Assembly: GCF_038751955.1 (NCBI RefSeq)
Contig: NZ_JBCEXH010000009.1
Coordinates: 1 to 64,000, forward strand
DNA from: Methanocalculus natronophilus
GTDB lineage: Archaea > Halobacteriota > Methanomicrobia > Methanomicrobiales > Methanocorpusculaceae
Direction: 5' to 3'
Length of the DNA stretch: 64,000 bases
Within the stretch, counting starts at the first letter, position 1. Every line of letters begins with the position of its first letter. The notes under the pieces are model-generated. The model was not told the DNA's origin. It saw only the letters and a list, made by a program, of their open reading frames with translations, and did no database searches. Of the stretch, positions 46,639 to 54,359 are shown piece after piece. The position numbers were made by a program, and so were the translations under genes.

Positions 46639-47613
46639 TCAGGATTCTTCGGTTACCTCAAGTTCGGCTCTGACTGCTTCTCCAAACTGCTGCGTGGATG
46701 CGGAACCGCCGAGATCGGGTGTCTGTATGCCGCGGGAAGAGACACGTTGTATCGCATCTTCAATCCGTACCGCATCATCTGGGTATCCGAGATGATCCAG
46801 CATCATTGCTCCGCTCCTGAGGGCGGCTATCGGATTTGCAATACCAAGCCCTGCGATGTCTGGTGCAGAGCCATGAACCGGCTCAAAGAGCGCATGGGAA
46901 TCGCCGATATTTGCAGACGGAAGCATACCAAGCCCCCCGACAAGGTAGCCTGCGACATCTGAGAGGATATCACCGAAGATGTTTGTTGTCACGATCACGC
47001 CATAGTGGGCGGGATGGAGCAGAATGTCAAGTGCGAGCGAGTCGATATAGCAGGTTTCAAAGCGGATACCGGCGTTTGAAGCCTCTTCACAGCAGATGTC
47101 CCGGAAGAGATGATCGGATTGTATGACATTTGCCTTGTTGCCGATTGTCAGCAGGCAGTTGCGTGTTTCTGCAAGACGGACGGCAACCTTTGCTATCCGC
47201 CTGCTTCCCGCAACCGAGACGACCCGTACTGTGCATGCACGATCCTTCTCACGCCACTCGATCCCAGAATACAGCCCTTCGGAATTCTCCCGCACGATCA
47301 TGATATCGAAGCCTGCGCCTTGCACAGGACGGAGGTTTGCATAGAGATCAAGTGCCTGCCGGATGCCAAGAATCACCGACTGGTAACAGGGATCCGGCGG
47401 TGTCGTCACTGCGCCAAAGAGGATTGCATCCGCATCTTTCATCATGTGCATATCCTCCCCGGTGCAGGCAACGCCGCTCTCCTGCCACCTGGTGTACCCG
47501 ACATCAATTGGGACATACTCAAATTCCGGGTGAAGCGCGGCGATGACATCCCATGCAACGGGGATCACCTCCCTGCCGATCCCGTCACCCGGAACGACTG
47601 CTATCCTGACCAT
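46639..47613 (-). CDS. aksF: Homoisocitrate dehydrogenase-type oxidative decarboxylase AksF
   Basis: A 324-aa isocitrate/isopropylmalate dehydrogenase family enzyme. It starts MVRIAVVPGDGIGREVI at the ATG at 47613, preceded by GGAGGAGACGA, and shows YANLRPVQG, VRENSEGLYSG, the KANVIQSDHLF Lys (catalytic) and DILSDVAGYLVGGLG. In methanogens AksF oxidises homoisocitrate and its longer homologues to 2-oxoadipate, 2-oxopimelate and 2-oxosuberate. Isopropylmalate dehydrogenase activity (LeuB) is the alternative; the neighbouring aksA, aksD and aksE with a homoaconitase-type loop favour AksF. It overlaps the uncharacterised gene upstream by 29 bases. Confidence 0.8.
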   Translation of the reverse strand: MVRIAVVPGDGIGREVIPVAWDVIAALHPEFEYVPIDVGYTRWQESGVACTGEDMHMMKDADAILFGAVTTPPDPCYQSVILGIRQALDLYANLRPVQGAGFDIMIVRENSEGLYSGIEWREKDRACTVRVVSVAGSRRIAKVAVRLAETRNCLLTIGNKANVIQSDHLFRDICCEEASNAGIRFETCYIDSLALDILLHPAHYGVIVTTNIFGDILSDVAGYLVGGLGMLPSANIGDSHALFEPVHGSAPDIAGLGIANPIAALRSGAMMLDHLGYPDDAVRIEDAIQRVSSRGIQTPDLGGSASTQQFGEAVRAELEVTEES

Positions 47614-48412
47614 TTCGTCTCCTCCATTCTTCCACAACCAGATAGACCGCGTCAAGCACGGTCTTTGGTGATGCACCCCAATGGACAACAGCACCAAAGA
47701 AACCATTATACAATCCTATCCCGCTCCTCTCCTTTCTGCAGCATCTGGCAACAAACGGTTCCTCTGAAACAGAGGAGAGCGGGCATATCTCGATCAGCGA
47801 GAAGTCCGGGCCATAACATTCCTGGTACAGCTGCTGTCCCGTGAGGCATCCTGCGATCCGTTCCCCTCCTTTCATCCTGTCCATGTCAAGGGTTTTGGCA
47901 AAGCCGCCTGCCCTGCAGGGGTAGACATCGGCATCGATCATGGAGATATCCCGGACATGGTGTTCAAAGACACAGTTCAAATCTCCAAGAAGCCCCTGCT
48001 CCTCCAGTATCTCGATGGTAACCGAGAGGTTTGCACGGGGAGGGCGTATATCATAGACATGCACGGTTTCAAATTCAGAGAGATCGGGATCAAGGACGAA
48101 GTTTATATGCTCATCCATCGCCCCGAAGATGGTGCAGCGTTTCCCTGTTTTGAGGGCAAGCCGGACCATGCCTGCACGATCATGCTGGTTTACCCGCCCG
48201 GAATACATGACAGTCTCCTCAGCTGTTGCAAGCACTTCTTCATGGAGGATATCCCGCATCATGCCGCTACCTTCCGGATCCGGCGTCACCCTGAGGAGTT
48301 CAAATCCATCCGGAACCCGCCTGACGAGGTATTCGGAGAGGAAATACACTTTGTCTCCAACCGGTTTCTCATAGGCATGGCCGACCACCTTACATTCAGG
48401 AGGAAAGATCAT
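47585..48412 (-). CDS. Uncharacterised protein inside the aks cluster
   Basis: A 275-aa soluble protein that I do not recognise with certainty (possibly the family I recall as DUF7714). It has a beta-rich start (KVVGHAYEKPVGDKVYFLSEYLVR, key VGHAYEKPVG) and many cysteines in the second half: YPCRAGGF, IAGCLTGQQLYQECYG, EICPLSSVSEEPFVARCCRKERSG, the last with adjacent Cys. No signal peptide or helix is seen. The start overlaps the aksE stop by four bases and its end overlaps aksF by 29 bases, so it is made together with the 2-oxosuberate enzymes. Confidence 0.75.
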   Translation of the reverse strand: MIFPPECKVVGHAYEKPVGDKVYFLSEYLVRRVPDGFELLRVTPDPEGSGMMRDILHEEVLATAEETVMYSGRVNQHDRAGMVRLALKTGKRCTIFGAMDEHINFVLDPDLSEFETVHVYDIRPPRANLSVTIEILEEQGLLGDLNCVFEHHVRDISMIDADVYPCRAGGFAKTLDMDRMKGGERIAGCLTGQQLYQECYGPDFSLIEICPLSSVSEEPFVARCCRKERSGIGLYNGFFGAVVHWGASPKTVLDAVYLVVEEWRRRNGQDSSRSG

Positions 48413-48879
48413 TGTTTCGCCCTCCAGTAGGGTACAAGCCCGCCTGCATGGATGATAGCCAGCATGCGGGGAGAGAGCGGGGTGAATGTATACCGGGTAC
48501 CGGCAGCCTCAAGCCACCCTCCATCAAGGTTGAGGACGATATGATCTCCATCCCTGCATGCAGGGATCTCCGCTTCAATGACGGGGAGACCGACATTGAT
48601 GGCGTTCCTGAAGAAGATCCGGGCAAACAGGGGGGAGATTACCGCAACCACACCCGCCTCCTTCAGTGCGACCGGCGCCTGTTCACGTGAGGAGCCGCAG
48701 CCGAAATTCCTGCCTGCCACGATGATTGAACCCTTGAGCCGGTTTGAAAGAGCAGGATCGAGATCCTCAAAGACATGGGTAGCCCAGACCGACCGGTCTT
48801 TTGTCCTGAGGTATCGTCCGGCGATAACAAGATCGGTGTCGATATCAGATCCCAGGCAGACGGCTTTTCCCTCACGCAT
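48409..48879 (-). CDS. aksE: Homoaconitase small subunit AksE
   Basis: A 156-aa small subunit of an isopropylmalate isomerase/homoaconitase. The start at 48879 gives the normal archaeal length; upstream codons belong to aksD. It shows GSDIDTDLVIAGRYLRT and GRNFGCGSSREQAP (substrate-binding GSSRE). The loop reads Y23-L24-R25-T26; published work on the Methanocaldococcus enzymes linked YLRT to homoaconitase and YLVY to isopropylmalate isomerase, as I recall. This supports a role in coenzyme B synthesis rather than leucine synthesis. It overlaps aksD by eight bases. Confidence 0.85.
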   Translation of the reverse strand: MREGKAVCLGSDIDTDLVIAGRYLRTKDRSVWATHVFEDLDPALSNRLKGSIIVAGRNFGCGSSREQAPVALKEAGVVAVISPLFARIFFRNAINVGLPVIEAEIPACRDGDHIVLNLDGGWLEAAGTRYTFTPLSPRMLAIIHAGGLVPYWRAKQ

Positions 48880-50092
48880 AATGCACCTCAGGATCGGCGA
48901 TGCACCCTTCAAGGGCGGTGGCAGCCGCAGTTGCTGGTGAGGCAAGATAGATGGTGCCGCCGACACCCATCCTGTTTTTGAAGTTCCGGTTGGCTGTGGA
49001 GAGGCAGACGTCGCCATCGCCAAGAACACCGCTATGCATACCAAGGCAGGGGCCGCAGCCGGGGGAGACGATGATACATCCGGCTTCGATCAGGTCGCTG
49101 ATGATGCCATCACGGGAAGCCTGCAGGAGAACCGCTTTTGAGGCGGGGACAACAATCGTTCTGACACGAACACGTTTCCCCCTGACAAGACGGGAGAATC
49201 TGAGAAGATCGCTATACCTGCCGTTTGTGCATGTCCCAAGCAGAACCTGATCCACCTCGATCCCGGTACACTCTGTGACAGGACTGATGGTATCAACCCG
49301 GTGGGGAAGAGCAACAACCGGGACAATGTCATCGAGGTCGAGCACGATCTCCTCCCGATACCCGCAGTCTTCTGGGATCTGTGGGGCGATGCGGTGTCCG
49401 AACTGCCCCAGGTAGGTGCGGCAGATATCGTCGGCATAGAAGATGGCATTCTTTGCACCGGTTTCAATACCCATATTGCAGATGCAGAGCCTGCTCTCCA
49501 TATCAAGCGAAGGTACACCGTCTCCGGTATACTCAAGTGCACAGTAGGTTGCACCCTCCATACCGAGTCGTGCAGCAACTGAAAGGGCAATATCCTTTGC
49601 CTCGGCAGCACCCCTGAGTGACCTGTTGAGCGAGATGCCAATCGTCTCCGGTACCCGAAACCAGGTCTCTCCTGAAGCCCAGATTGCAGCCATATCGGTT
49701 GCACCGACACCTGTTGCAAACGCACCAAAGGCCCCGCCTGTGCAGGAGTGCGAGTCGGCACCCACCACAACCTCACCGGGGAGGATACATCCCTCGCTCA
49801 TGACCTGATGACAGATGCCGCCGCCGCAGTCAGAAAACGGGATTGATTGTTCCTTTGCAAACGATCTGAGTTCTTTCTGGAGATCCGCAGTCAGTCCGGT
49901 ATTTGCAGGACAGATATGATCATAGAGAACGGCGATGCGTGATACATCAATTCCCAGGGGAACACCCATCTCCTTGAATGCCTGGAGCGTGAGGACGCCT
50001 GTACCATCATGGACATATGCCCGGTCAACAGAACGGTCAACATACTCACCAGCAGTTCCGCCGAGGATTTGTTCGGTCAGGGTGCGGCTCAT
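48872..50092 (-). CDS. aksD: Homoaconitase large subunit AksD
   Basis: A 406-aa aconitase-superfamily subunit that isomerises (R)-homocitrate and its homologues through cis-homoaconitate. It carries the [4Fe-4S] ligands as GTCTNGRYSD and GCGPCLGMHSG, substrate contact segments GADSHSCTGGAFGAF (key DSHSCTGG) and YDHICPANTG. Length fits archaeal LeuC/AksD proteins. The first codons overlap the aksA stop by four bases. Leucine isopropylmalate isomerase is the alternative, judged less likely from the partner's YLRT loop. Confidence 0.85.
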   Translation of the reverse strand: MSRTLTEQILGGTAGEYVDRSVDRAYVHDGTGVLTLQAFKEMGVPLGIDVSRIAVLYDHICPANTGLTADLQKELRSFAKEQSIPFSDCGGGICHQVMSEGCILPGEVVVGADSHSCTGGAFGAFATGVGATDMAAIWASGETWFRVPETIGISLNRSLRGAAEAKDIALSVAARLGMEGATYCALEYTGDGVPSLDMESRLCICNMGIETGAKNAIFYADDICRTYLGQFGHRIAPQIPEDCGYREEIVLDLDDIVPVVALPHRVDTISPVTECTGIEVDQVLLGTCTNGRYSDLLRFSRLVRGKRVRVRTIVVPASKAVLLQASRDGIISDLIEAGCIIVSPGCGPCLGMHSGVLGDGDVCLSTANRNFKNRMGVGGTIYLASPATAAATALEGCIADPEVHYA

Positions 50093-51219
50093 TCCTTCAC
50101 CTCTGCCTCAGCCTGGCGGATGAGCGAGAGGAGGAGATCATGCGTGATACTGCATTTGCTCTCACCCCGTTCCTTGACCTGATCGAGGATCCAGCAGATC
50201 CGATCTTCAGAGAGATCATGGCCGATTGACTGAAGAATATGGATTATGGCTTTCTTGCCGGTATGTTTGCCAAGTATGTAGTGCCGCTCCCCACCAACCA
50301 GGGCAGGATGGATGTACTCGTAGGTTGCAGAATCCTCAATGAGTGCGGCGATATGGATCCCTGATTCATGGGCAAACGCATGCTCCCCGACGATGGCTTT
50401 CGTCTTTGGCACGGGAATGCCTGATGCGTCTGCCACCGCCCTGCTCAGGGTGAGCAGGTGCGAGAGATCATAGCGGTCAATGCCTCCCTTGAACCGGAGG
50501 GCGCATGCAACCTCTTCAAGGGATGCATTCCCTGCCCGCTCCCCGATCCCGTTCGCGGTTGTATGAAGCTGGTAGGCACCCCGTTCTGCTGCCGTGATGG
50601 TATTGGCAACAGCACACCCCATATCATCATGGCAGTGGACACAGAGGGGGATTGGGAGATCAATAACCAGCTGATCGATGACAGATGCCATCTCAAGTGG
50701 TGTCAGGCAGCCGACGGTGTCGGCAAACGAGACATAGTCTGCACCATATTCTGCTCCCCTGAGATACATCTCACGAAGAAAGGAGATATCGGTTCGTGAG
50801 GCGTCTTCTGCCGCAAAACGAACCTGTATCCCATGATCGTGGGCATATTCGACCATCGAGAGGGCCTGTTCAAGCACTTCGTGGCGGGGTTTTCGGTATT
50901 TTATCTTCATATGCAGATCAGAGGTGGCAATGAAGATGCTGACCATATCGACATCACACTGGAGCGCACAGTCCAGATCAGACTGTAAGGCCCGCGACAG
51001 GCAGCATATCCGGGCATCCAGACCCATATGTGAGATTGCACTGACACACCCTGCTTCAGTATGGGAGACGATTGGAAAACCGGCTTCGATGACATCAACC
51101 CCGACACTATCAAGGAGGTTTGCAATCCTGCACTTCTCTTCATTCGAGAACGACACACCCGGGGTCTGTTCACCATCCCGGAGGGTTACATCACAGATCT
51201 CAACATTCCACTTTTTCAT
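50089..51219 (-). CDS. aksA: Homocitrate synthase family protein AksA
   Basis: A 376-aa Claisen-condensing enzyme adding acetyl-CoA to 2-oxoglutarate, 2-oxoadipate and 2-oxopimelate for chain elongation. The ATG at 51219 follows GGAGG by nine bases. Signatures: DVTLRDGEQTPGVSF (metal Asp, catalytic Arg), HCHDDMGCAVANT with metal-binding HxH-type residues, GIGERAGNASLEEV and HESGIHIAALI. The length, without a LeuA regulatory domain, fits AksA or citramalate synthase-like proteins; the context decides for AksA. It overlaps the end of the TPP enzyme gene by 20 bases. Confidence 0.85.
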   Translation of the reverse strand: MKKWNVEICDVTLRDGEQTPGVSFSNEEKCRIANLLDSVGVDVIEAGFPIVSHTEAGCVSAISHMGLDARICCLSRALQSDLDCALQCDVDMVSIFIATSDLHMKIKYRKPRHEVLEQALSMVEYAHDHGIQVRFAAEDASRTDISFLREMYLRGAEYGADYVSFADTVGCLTPLEMASVIDQLVIDLPIPLCVHCHDDMGCAVANTITAAERGAYQLHTTANGIGERAGNASLEEVACALRFKGGIDRYDLSHLLTLSRAVADASGIPVPKTKAIVGEHAFAHESGIHIAALIEDSATYEYIHPALVGGERHYILGKHTGKKAIIHILQSIGHDLSEDRICWILDQVKERGESKCSITHDLLLSLIRQAEAEVKE

Positions 51220-52471
51220 ATGCTGCATCCTCCGGGCATCTTCCCTGGATGATCAGGACCTTCTGTCCTTCTTCTGGTACAGAGAGTACGTCTTCGAGGG
51301 TTTTGGTATCTTCTGCAGGGATGACCAGGGGCTCTGCCCATTCCAGGTACTGGCAGATGTCAGAGACGGGCTGGCCACCGGTCATTGCCATTCTCTGGTT
51401 TGCAAGGACAATCACAAGGAGTGGGTATCCCTTTGCATGACAGTCGATGAGGCTGGTCAGTCCTGAGTGGAGGAGTGCTCCGTCCCCAATCAATGCTATG
51501 CATGTGCTTCTGGCTGCAACTGCAACTGAAGAGCCAAGGCAGTAGGAAGCCACCCCGATTGAATACGGGGGATTCATGGAGAGAAGAGCACAGCCGATAT
51601 CCGGAATAACCTTCATCTTTTTTGCTTTCAGGAGTGAGAGGAGAGGTGTATAGGGACAGTCAGGGCAGCATGTTCTATAGAAACCCCTGTCTGAGAAGCG
51701 CTCAGAAGAACGCCCCACTGCAGGCGGGAGAAGCTGATGGTGCTCCCTGAGAAACGGCCGCCCGATCTCGATGATCCGGCTTCCGGGAGGTAATTGTGGC
51801 GGGGGATAGGGTATGATAACCTGTGAGTCGCCTTTTGCCATGCCGACTCCGATGTCACCTCCACGAAGCTGGTTCAGAGGTGACTGCTTCGTCCAGGCAA
51901 AGAGTCCGGCAGTTCCTTTTTCGGCTCTTGTCACCCTGCCGGCAATCGTCAGATCAGTATCTGCAAGCCGTCCGTTCCTGAGTACCTGGACGGTATCCTC
52001 GAATGCAACCTCAGATTTGAGAAGGGATGGGGTGAGGCGTACGATGGCAATCCGTGAAAAGCGCTCAGATGCCTCAAATGCAGCTGAAAATCCGGTAAAA
52101 ATTGTTTTTTCATCAGGCTCCACCACCGGAGCCATGGCCAGTTCCCCATAATACCGGGAATCCTGGGCATTCTGTGAGAAGAGGGCTTCCGGATCATCTC
52201 CCGCGACAACCACAACACCGGATATGAGCCCCTGCGTGGTTGCGTTGATGAGGGGATCAGCAAGGGCATTCATCCCGACGTTTTTAACGAGAACTGCGGA
52301 ACGCCTGCCTGATAGCGAGTCTCCAAGTGCATATTCAAGAGCGGTCTTCTCATTGACGACTGTTTCCACACGCAGGAGATCGCCAATCTCCGTCACCGGA
52401 TACCCGGGTACGGTATAGATGGTATCTGCACTGTTTTTGAGTGCCCATGCTACTGCTTCAAAACCCTTCAT
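51200..52471 (-). CDS. IorA-like thiamine diphosphate enzyme without ferredoxin domain
   Basis: A 423-aa protein related to the alpha chain of indolepyruvate:ferredoxin oxidoreductase. The pyrimidine domain starts FEAVAWALKNSADTIYTVPGYPVTEIG (key VPGYPVTE) with catalytic-type E42 (NEKTALEYA). The pyrophosphate domain has GDGALLHSG (329-337), N358 and AMTGG (362-366), which form the Mg/TPP site. CCPDCP (268-273) matches the linker of IorA. The chain ends at the point where IorA continues into two [4Fe-4S] domains, and no IorB gene is nearby. A non-oxidative 2-oxoacid decarboxylase is a good guess; 2-oxosuberate is the likely substrate from context. GGGAGGG precedes the ATG, which overlaps the preceding stop (ATGA). 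Confidence 0.8.
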   Translation of the reverse strand: MKGFEAVAWALKNSADTIYTVPGYPVTEIGDLLRVETVVNEKTALEYALGDSLSGRRSAVLVKNVGMNALADPLINATTQGLISGVVVVAGDDPEALFSQNAQDSRYYGELAMAPVVEPDEKTIFTGFSAAFEASERFSRIAIVRLTPSLLKSEVAFEDTVQVLRNGRLADTDLTIAGRVTRAEKGTAGLFAWTKQSPLNQLRGGDIGVGMAKGDSQVIIPYPPPQLPPGSRIIEIGRPFLREHHQLLPPAVGRSSERFSDRGFYRTCCPDCPYTPLLSLLKAKKMKVIPDIGCALLSMNPPYSIGVASYCLGSSVAVAARSTCIALIGDGALLHSGLTSLIDCHAKGYPLLVIVLANQRMAMTGGQPVSDICQYLEWAEPLVIPAEDTKTLEDVLSVPEEGQKVLIIQGRCPEDAAYEKVEC

Positions 52472-53439
52472 GTACAATCCCTCCCGGGAACGATGTCACA
52501 GCCGGTGCAAAACGTGCACATCGTCTCTGCATTGTGTGTGTCCAGACCAGCGTCCTGCAATGCCCGTTTATGAATGCCTGCAATTTTCAGAAGGCGATCC
52601 GCCTGTGGCACCGGATACCCTGCCAGTTCTGCTGCCGGAGTGAGCGGGCGAAGTACCGGGATAACACCCCTTTCCGTCAGGAGACGGATGCAATCCTCCA
52701 TCTCGGCATCTGTCTCCCCAAGCCCGATGATCACATTCGAAAAGACGTTGCCTCTGCCAAAGAGTGCAACGGACTGGTCAAGGGCATACAGTACCGCCTC
52801 CCAGGACATCTCCGGGCACATCTCCCTGCAGAGTGCGGGTGTTGCAGCTTCCAGATTGAATTTGACTTCCGCAACACCTGCATCATACAGGGTTTTTGGC
52901 GTCTCCGGGCCAGGATAGATCGAGACCCCGACCGGAACGTCTGAAGGCATAATCCGCCTCAGTACTGCCAGAACCCTCTCCTCCTCCTCTTCGATTGATC
53001 CAACAATACCGCTTGTGACTGAGATGGCATCGATTCTGTCTGCAACAGTTGCTATCAGCGCAGCTATCTCATCAGGCGTCTTCACCCGGCCTTCTGTAAG
53101 CGGCACCGGACAGTACCTGCAGGAGTAGATACACTGCCCTGAAACCGTGATATAAGCCTGGCGTGGGCAGTGGAGAGCTGGAGGCTCAAGGATTCCGGTA
53201 CACTCCAGTGACCCGAACCTGAGGATGCAGGCTCCGTCTCCGGTATGATGCAGCTCGACTGGAGAGTTTTTTGATATTGCCAGCCGTACCCTTCTTCCCT
53301 GTTTTGCGAAGAAGACCGAGCCTGCCCCTCCTGCACCTGGTCCGGCAGCTGACTGCGCGACAAAACCTGATGCATCTGATCCAGTGAGACGGCATGTGCC
53401 AGCAGCAAGGAGTTCTGCCTTCAGTCTGTGCCATCGCAT
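52468..53439 (-). CDS. Radical SAM protein of the aks cluster
   Basis: A 323-aa radical SAM enzyme. The cluster motif is C103-x3-C107-x2-C110 (CIYSCRYC), preceded by AYITVSGQ, with VTSGIVGSIEEEEERV as the SAM-contacting beta-3 part and VKFNLEAATPALCREMCPEMSW similar to biotin/lipoyl synthase-type enzymes. A C-terminal cysteine group C308, C311, C314 and C322 could hold an auxiliary iron-sulfur cluster or provide sulfur. Function unknown. It overlaps the TPP enzyme by four bases and the marker 11 gene by 19 bases. Confidence 0.85.
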   Translation of the reverse strand: MRWHRLKAELLAAGTCRLTGSDASGFVAQSAAGPGAGGAGSVFFAKQGRRVRLAISKNSPVELHHTGDGACILRFGSLECTGILEPPALHCPRQAYITVSGQCIYSCRYCPVPLTEGRVKTPDEIAALIATVADRIDAISVTSGIVGSIEEEEERVLAVLRRIMPSDVPVGVSIYPGPETPKTLYDAGVAEVKFNLEAATPALCREMCPEMSWEAVLYALDQSVALFGRGNVFSNVIIGLGETDAEMEDCIRLLTERGVIPVLRPLTPAAELAGYPVPQADRLLKIAGIHKRALQDAGLDTHNAETMCTFCTGCDIVPGRDCT

Positions 53440-54311
53440 AATTGCAGTGCCTCCTCAAACCGGGTCACAAACGGGATTGCAGCAACAGCGCCGATCAATC
53501 CCCTGCCCGAGATCCTGATATCAAGGAGAGGGCGAACCGTATCCAGTGCCGACCAGCTGACCTCGCCCCGTTTCACCTTCCACCCATAGCTCTCCAGCGC
53601 CGAGGGATCGAAGCCGGTGAATGCCGCCATCCCGGTCTCGTCAGAGAGCGTATGCTGCTTCACGAGTGCCTCGAAGCGACGAATGCAGGAGGCAGGGTCG
53701 GTTGTCGCAAATTCACAGGCGACAGCCACACAGTTCTTTGTCCGGTAGGCGACCGGGTAGAGCTGTACAATGGTATGGGAGAGATACCGGGTCGATTCAT
53801 CTTCAATTGATCGGGCAATATTATGACAGAGCGTCCAGGTGGCACCCGCTTCCGGCGTATCGGTGTCATCCACACCGATGATGACCCGATGGCGGCGGGG
53901 AAGAACGATACGCGAACCTGCAACCATGCCGCCGCCGCACGGATCAGATTCGGATCGGATCACCCCGGTGGCGTGTGCCCGGCAGACAGAAGCACCAACG
54001 CCGCCGCCGCCCATCCCGATATAGGTAATCCCGATCTCGGGGCCTTTCACTGCCACACGGGCAATCCCTGCAGGGAAACGGGATCCGATCAGGTCAAGAT
54101 CGACTGCGCCTGGTGAGAGCATATACCGGGTTGTCTGGCCAACAGTTCGTGCAGAGCGAACGAGGGGGCTTTTGCTGTAGTGGTGTTTTACCCACATCGC
54201 ACCCCCGATACAGTCAAACCGCTCTATCAGTTCCACTGCTTGTTCATCTTCTGATGCTATCGCGAGGATCTCAGGATAGGTTATGACATAGGGATCTGCT
54301 GTATGCTTCAT
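53421..54311 (-). CDS. Methanogenesis marker protein 11
   Basis: A 296-aa protein matching the methanogen-specific marker 11 family: PEILAIASEDEQAVELIERFDCIGGAMWVKHHY (key GGAMWVKHHY), a Gly-rich GMGGGGVGASVCRA and IIGVDDTDTPEAGATWTLCHNIA (key GVDDTDT), the last shared with TiaS/DUF1743-type ATP-binding proteins that modify tRNA. Biochemical role unknown. Start is the ATG at 54311; a GTG at 54329 is possible. It leads the long operon with the radical SAM, TPP and aks genes. Confidence 0.88.
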   Translation of the reverse strand: MKHTADPYVITYPEILAIASEDEQAVELIERFDCIGGAMWVKHHYSKSPLVRSARTVGQTTRYMLSPGAVDLDLIGSRFPAGIARVAVKGPEIGITYIGMGGGGVGASVCRAHATGVIRSESDPCGGGMVAGSRIVLPRRHRVIIGVDDTDTPEAGATWTLCHNIARSIEDESTRYLSHTIVQLYPVAYRTKNCVAVACEFATTDPASCIRRFEALVKQHTLSDETGMAAFTGFDPSALESYGWKVKRGEVSWSALDTVRPLLDIRISGRGLIGAVAAIPFVTRFEEALQLCDGTD

Positions 54312-54359
54312 AGCGGCCTGCCATCGCACCCGGTACAGAAGGAGAGAGGAATTTCCAGA

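Follow-up and report, generated by a model that had tools for sequence, protein, structure and literature searches.

The final step of biological methane formation depends on coenzyme B. The published route to this cofactor runs via 2-oxosuberate and suberate semialdehyde, and genes are named for the elongation enzymes only (PMC3087415, section 14.5). An excerpt of a 2025 paper describes the coenzyme B biosynthetic pathway as still unknown and proposes COG1900 proteins (MMP16, L-ASST) for the sulphur step (PMC12068725). Where an excerpt of another paper mentions 2-oxosuberate, it is solely as a compound on which DHTKD1-type enzymes act (PMC12655727). In the literature searched, which excludes most subscription journals, we recognised no title in which a gene for a 2-oxosuberate decarboxylase is named. 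A related case is coenzyme M synthesis, in which, according to an excerpt of PMC12713407, ComDE carries out a thiamine pyrophosphate (TPP)-dependent decarboxylation to an aldehyde that precedes thiol formation. Here, we analyzed a stretch of 64,000 nucleotides from Methanocalculus natronophilus (assembly GCF_038751955.1, contig NZ_JBCEXH010000009.1, positions 1 to 64,000; hereafter the window) that holds an eight-gene cluster in which aks-like genes are joined by a gene for an IorA-like TPP protein.

A candidate 2-oxosuberate decarboxylase in an aks gene cluster

We propose, with a probability of roughly 77%, that the protein encoded at 51200-52477 is a TPP-dependent non-oxidative 2-oxosuberate decarboxylase. 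We infer its substrate, product and chemistry from the observed gene order, co-occurrence and joint absence with aks, TPP-site residues, missing ferredoxin domain and lack of an adjacent IorB gene, which together favour the non-oxidative decarboxylase of the original prediction. The protein would represent a side branch of the IorA lineage in which both the C-terminal ferredoxin domain and the IorB partner are absent, and it would convert 2-oxosuberate, the end product of AksA, AksD, AksE and AksF, to 7-oxoheptanoate (pimelate semialdehyde) and CO2. Because ferredoxin domain and IorB are both missing, the TPP-bound carbanion-enamine would be protonated and released as the aldehyde rather than oxidised, and a later enzyme would convert this aldehyde to 7-mercaptoheptanoate. 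A single small candidate protein would thus fill a gap in the known pathway, at one missing step of coenzyme B synthesis.

The cluster occupies positions 46639-54329 on the minus strand. Its eight genes lie in the originally described order, marker 11, radical S-adenosylmethionine (SAM), TPP, aksA, aksD, aksE, DUF7714 and aksF, and overlap their neighbors throughout when checked against the open reading frames (ORFs):

51200..52477, minus strand: IorA-like TPP enzyme without ferredoxin domain, candidate 2-oxosuberate decarboxylase (425 residues from the TTG start, 423 from the ATG at 52471)
50089..51228, minus strand: aksA-like 2-oxoacid chain-elongation synthase of the isopropylmalate/homocitrate synthase family (family scans)
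48872..50092, minus strand: aksD-like homoaconitase large subunit (TIGR02086 and TIGR01343 above cut-off)
48409..48879, minus strand: aksE-like homoaconitase small subunit (start inferred, ORF reaches 49044; TIGR02087 above cut-off)
47585..48412, minus strand: DUF7714 protein (PF24830, E 1e-81), distant XcbA relative with five invariant cysteines
46639..47613, minus strand: aksF-like homoisocitrate dehydrogenase (start inferred, ORF reaches 47706)
52468..53439, minus strand: radical SAM protein (in the family scans, under all of the named cut-offs listed)
53421..54329, minus strand: methanogenesis marker protein 11 (GTG start, ATG at 54311; TIGR03280)

The 20-base overlap previously reported between the TPP stop and aksA holds from the second Met of aksA (51219) and becomes 29 bases from the first. 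The order marker 11-radical SAM-TPP-aksA-aksD is kept in 30/30 best-matching loci of Methanomicrobiales, window included, and the arrangement is therefore not due to chance; the radical SAM gene adjoins the TPP gene in all 30.

Co-occurrence with aks genes in Methanomicrobiales

Of 100 Methanomicrobiales genomes, 89, some of them fragments, have a TPP match that clearly exceeds the IorA level (best E values of 3.4e-45 or below). The best matches in the other 11 (G018, G042, G050, G067, G086, G087, G090, G091, G094, G095 and G098) had E values of about 3.5e-18 to 9.8e-23, and these genomes were searched with a chimeric query alongside three TPP-bearing control genomes. One of them, G086, has aks genes on a contig that stops at aksA. 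AksD-like matches in the remaining ten do not exceed 46% identity, which is the Leu-type level (43-44% for Leu-type and 57-61% for AksD in the controls), and an AksA-level match (56%) is found only in G018. Four of these assemblies (G050, G067, G095 and G098) are 62-85% complete and count as weak evidence.

A second sample, here called the named loci, consisted of the best 80 of 125 relatives in a scan with a DUF7714 alignment built from Methanomicrobiales; contigs reaching over 2.9 kb upstream of DUF7714 were taken as long enough to show the TPP gene. Four aks genes together with TPP are carried by 62 of these 80 loci, a few of them at a contig end. Four aks genes were seen in 4 further loci and three in another 4, in every case on contigs too short to reveal TPP, and 10 loci have neither aks nor TPP, 7 of them with enough contig. 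Among the informative loci, TPP is thus present in 62/62 with four aks genes versus 0/7 without aks. The seven are those of M. mobile BP, two rumen- or abomasum-type Methanomicrobium metagenome-assembled genomes (MAGs), Candidatus Methanocorpusculum faecipullorum, a Methanocalculaceae MAG, M. petauri MG and Candidatus Methanorbis basalitermitum; marker 11 and radical SAM are kept in four of them. In G094 and G090, the radical SAM gene is apparently reduced to an N-terminal remnant of 77-100 residues directly before DUF7714 (L111 1205-1507, L113 1274-1507).

M. mobile BP (G087, NZ_JOMF01000006.1) yielded no match to AksA, AksD, AksE or AksF, and its sole TPP match is its IorA. Here ftr, a marker 11 paralogue, DUF7714, an aldehyde dehydrogenase gene and nfo lie together, and the remaining cluster is gone. 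The marker-11-like protein adjoining ftr (L158 8879-9832) and a second one adjoining marker 11 in M. petauri (L088 2018-2971) score 197 and 207 bits, below the TIGR03280 cut-off of 255.8. The aldehyde dehydrogenase gene follows DUF7714 (L158 10728-12245), and one that looks similar by eye follows aksF in a relative of M. mobile (G025, L259 738-2081). In excerpts of a review (PMC10658910), coenzyme B is listed in a table among the requirements of M. mobile, the reference list holds a title stating that 7-mercaptoheptanoylthreonine phosphate substitutes for a growth factor, and a sentence that is cut off speaks of the nature of the factor as something that "remains". Natural absences of this kind may explain why some gut methanogens depend on others for coenzyme B.

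In M. petauri MG (G018), matches to TPP, AksD, AksE and AksF are no higher than IorA or Leu level. Its AksA-like gene (56%; L094 1498-2616) adjoins a gene read as nifH, with the other aks genes missing, and this position suggests that it is likely a nitrogenase homocitrate synthase. According to an excerpt of PMC10035134, nif genes are reported for M. petauri and the organism was grown in BRN-RF10 medium, in which we read RF as rumen fluid.

Distribution across the phylum

Across 294 genomes of the phylum, DUF7714 was detected in 120. The TPP family was found at E<=1e-65 in 117 of these 120 (exceptions G018, G042 and G270) versus 1 of the 174 genomes without DUF7714 (G223). One further TPP gene, in G212, falls short of this line (1.2e-47), yet is aks-linked. 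Families are labelled (f1, f8 and so on) as in the genome searches, and from context we take f8 to be Methanosarcinaceae and f22 Methanotrichaceae. In 20 regions around TPP, marker 11 is adjacent in 10/10 from f8 and 5/5 from f22, aksA and aksD are adjacent in 2/2 from f30, and an aks operon is present in f25 (G212); the f31 and f26 regions showed neither marker 11 nor aks beside TPP. In addition, TPP lies within 1.3 kb of aksA in 3/3 f14/f7 regions (two f14, one f7), with aksD, aksE, aksF and DUF7714 beyond. The TPP protein was thus found beside aks or marker 11 in several families of the phylum, which favours the original prediction.

Joint absence also extends beyond Methanomicrobiales. The best AksA-like matches in G103, G105, G130 and G123 are Leu-sized (42-45%), and AksA matches in G168, G216, G257 and G278 reach 61, 55, 56 and 52%. 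TPP and AksA are absent together in the four f10/f12 genomes; two of these, G103 (f10) and G105 (f12), were tested for methyl-coenzyme M reductase (MCR), which both have, and they have no DUF7714 and a TPP match at IorA level only. In these four genomes, as in the seven aks-less named loci, M. mobile among them, the TPP protein is missing where aks is missing, which also favours the original prediction.

Wide occurrence outside coenzyme B users, which would count against the original prediction, was seen in part, in one genome. This is G212, probably a haloarchaeon without MCR, in which we found no MCR match and no MMP16 above cut-off; there, the TPP gene ends an aksA-aksD-aksE-aksF-TPP operon (L155 4991-10241). 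Elsewhere, this genome encodes BioB, BioW, a BioU-like protein, BioF and BioD (L258 54-4667), BioW scoring 227.9 bits against a cut-off of 226 and the BioU-like protein falling below its own. Among the 59 genomes of its class, the other 58 of which appear to be haloarchaea, G212 was the sole one with a match to its own TPP protein or BioW in a listing that held up to 8 scored candidates per genome and omitted weak matches. BioW uses pimelate, and pimelate is oxidised 7-oxoheptanoate. The aks operon and the pimelate-using biotin cluster thus hint independently at a C7 product and fit 2-oxosuberate decarboxylation rather than speak against it: in this one genome, the same decarboxylase may supply biotin synthesis by way of pimelate, which suggests an archaeal source of pimelate.

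Family, fold and competing functions of the TPP protein

With 151.5 bits against the IorA cut-off of 650.9 (TIGR03336), the TPP protein falls outside IorA, whereas the genome's own IorA scores 800.7. The C-terminal TPP domain PF02775 is over its cut-off (37.2 vs 21.9) and the N-terminal domain PF02776 just under (25.3 vs 26.8). Counting residues from the TTG at 52477, E43, G331 and D332 are conserved in 29/29 relatives and N360 in 28/29 (the G223 protein was left out), in line with the TPP site first noted in the window. The TPP domains, catalytic Glu and GDG...N motif of the non-oxidative decarboxylase class are thus all present.

A structure model (pLDDT, the predicted local distance difference test, 92.5; pTM, the predicted template modelling score, 0.93) matches acetolactate synthase and the benzoylformate and pyruvate decarboxylases over its whole length, with Z scores of 25.7-27.8 among the 50 matches listed. 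No relative was found among solved-structure sequences by phmmer and profile search, no match to the ComDE models TIGR03845 and TIGR03846 was seen at E<=0.01, and a weak match to the phosphonopyruvate decarboxylase model TIGR03297 reached 18.6 of 312.5 bits. Carboligases, including acetolactate synthase, tie with decarboxylases in fold, and co-occurrence with aks does not by itself name a substrate. The protein could then be a carboligase, or could act on another 2-oxoacid of the elongation pathway, decarboxylating 2-oxoadipate or 2-oxopimelate in a side reaction or for proof-reading. We consider this unlikely, as the published route from 2-oxosuberate to the semialdehyde requires a decarboxylase for which no gene is named (PMC3087415), and as the BioW cluster of G212, a single genome, calls for a C7 dicarboxylate.

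IorA is the nearest named family, and the four residues E43, G331, D332 and N360 are also found in 14/14 IorA proteins. It is nevertheless very improbable that the protein is the subunit of an oxidative 2-oxoacid:ferredoxin oxidoreductase, working with an IorB and a separate ferredoxin encoded elsewhere to give acyl-CoA. C-terminal ferredoxin cysteines are present in all 14 IorA proteins fetched, but neither the 20 relatives listed nor the translated window protein contain a CxxCxxC motif. Of the 13 relatives printed, 11 have 56-80 residues after the last TPP-site motif found, and the remaining two have 47 and 209; the corresponding stretch in the four IorA printed is 133-137 residues long. 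A tree of 44 proteins places all 14 IorA on one side of a branch with 100/100 support; the other side holds the 30 ferredoxin-less proteins, of which that of G223 is nearest IorA. The search for IorB (strong match at E<=1e-49) covered nine genomes, seven of them with TPP, and no strong match lay beside the TPP gene in these seven. Strong matches in G000, G025, G036 and G216 adjoin IorA, and G212 has a TPP gene and no IorB match at all. In the source genome, IorA is followed by the only strong IorB match, both away from the cluster, and ComDE is also elsewhere. The missing ferredoxin domain and missing IorB neighbor of the original prediction are thus both confirmed.

The idea that the TPP protein serves marker 11 and radical SAM in another cofactor pathway, with its aks link due to operon hitch-hiking, draws on f8 and f22, where TPP lies beside marker 11 and apart from aksE-DUF7714-aksF, but we give it hardly any credence, since TPP never occurs without aks in the 69 informative named loci while marker 11 and radical SAM stay in 4/7, and since TPP sits in the aks operon of G212 with no marker 11 match within the 10.3 kb fetched around it.

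Several observations weigh against a 2-oxosuberate decarboxylase, beginning with the fold scores, by which decarboxylases and carboligases cannot be told apart. The cluster does not form a single indivisible pathway, since several genomes that lack aks and TPP still have marker 11, radical SAM and DUF7714. The TPP protein is also less conserved than its neighbor, often at about 54% where aksA is at about 64% in the best 30 loci. G270 has DUF7714, an AksA-like gene (48%) and MCR, yet its TPP match is at IorA level only (assembly 95% complete, in 230 contigs). Conversely, G223 encodes a ferredoxin-less relative without an AksA-type match and without aks in the 11 kb fetched; on these grounds and for its place nearest IorA in the tree, we set this protein aside as a family member. 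The survey has class I methanogens (Methanococcales, Methanobacteriales) outside its scope, the TPP/DUF7714 overlap was compared by eye with the E<=1e-65 line chosen after a gap was seen, and the TPP profile (A1) included members of Methanomicrobiales, f14 and f7. Finally, the Aks equivalog cut-offs are not reached (NF040615 415.7/550, NF040625 164.3/230, NF040626 306.2/540). The name aks therefore relies on subfamily models, context and the separate Leu-type genes of relatives. Of the original gene names, marker 11 stands (316.6 bits vs the TIGR03280 cut-off of 255.8), and those of AksD and AksE stand at the subfamily level.

DUF7714, a distant relative of XcbA

Among the named relatives aligned, the window DUF7714 is closest to those of two Methanocalculus loci, L214 and L220 (85% and 81%). 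Next to DUF7714, aksE is found in 29/29 f8 loci, with aksF on the other side in 24/29, and DUF7714 lies between aksE and aksF in 3/3 f22 loci. The f8 DUF7714 of L040 matches 3 of 72,556 plasmid records at E<=1, those of Xanthobacter autotrophicus Py2, Mycolicibacterium chubuense NBB4 and Nocardioides JS614. A phosphosulfolactate synthase gene adjoins the plasmid XcbA gene in both records examined, with XcbA-family scores of 464 and 423 bits. XcbA is described, in an excerpt of PMC11507031, as the Py2 analogue of sulfoacetaldehyde dehydrogenase in coenzyme M synthesis. The DUF7714 proteins remain below the XcbA family cut-off of 150 (NF052538; 47.6 for the window, 77.9 for L040 and 63.8 for M. 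mobile), while C166, C189, C210, C224 and C225 are invariant in 10/10 aligned rows, two of which are the Xanthobacter and Nocardioides XcbA. On this sequence evidence, DUF7714 is distantly related to XcbA, a protein of bacterial coenzyme M synthesis. A Foldseek search with DUF7714 yielded no match at E<=0.001 and the best VIA-align Z was 6.9, a result that does not show the fold to be new. In f31, divergent DUF7714 genes are found at L085, L086 and L087 (two in G278, the other in G270), with no aks match within the 8-14 kb fetched; both genomes have two McrA matches each.

A role of DUF7714 in thiol formation is an attractive lead, which would make it a second candidate, for the sulphur step. 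Its persistence in M. mobile and other aks-less genomes weakens the case for an enzyme of coenzyme B synthesis only. The explanation that M. mobile keeps DUF7714 for want of MMP16 was not upheld, as an MMP16-like gene is present (G087:C4:326034-327275); at 289.6 bits, its product is below the cut-off of 363.95 that 7 of the 13 genomes searched reach.

A more speculative extension, which we regard as doubtful, is that the cluster covers every step from 2-oxoglutarate to 7-mercaptoheptanoate, with DUF7714 as a cysteine-rich XcbA-type aldehyde-to-thiol enzyme, and that aks plus the decarboxylase form a general archaeal C7 route, to coenzyme B and, in G212, to pimelate and biotin. If this were true, DUF7714 in aks-less genomes such as M. 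mobile would point to precursor salvage or a second role in coenzyme M synthesis.

Comparison with known systems

The TPP protein resembles IorA in its TPP domains, conserved Asn-Glu-Lys, GD...N motif and paired cysteines. It differs in having no C-terminal ferredoxin domain and no IorB neighbor, in its separate branch and, in Methanomicrobiales, in a shortened middle region. Acetolactate synthase and the benzoylformate and pyruvate decarboxylases match it structurally over the whole chain, but at 11-17% identity, and the TPP protein is about 100 residues shorter, with the middle region reduced. DUF7714 shares the five invariant cysteines of XcbA, whereas its identity is 22-25% for the window protein and it sits with aks genes rather than with phosphosulfolactate synthase. 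The ComDE sulfopyruvate decarboxylase has no model match in the TPP protein, and the genome has its own ComDE (L008); the likeness would lie in the reaction, since the TPP protein would likewise decarboxylate its substrate to an aldehyde preceding thiol formation.

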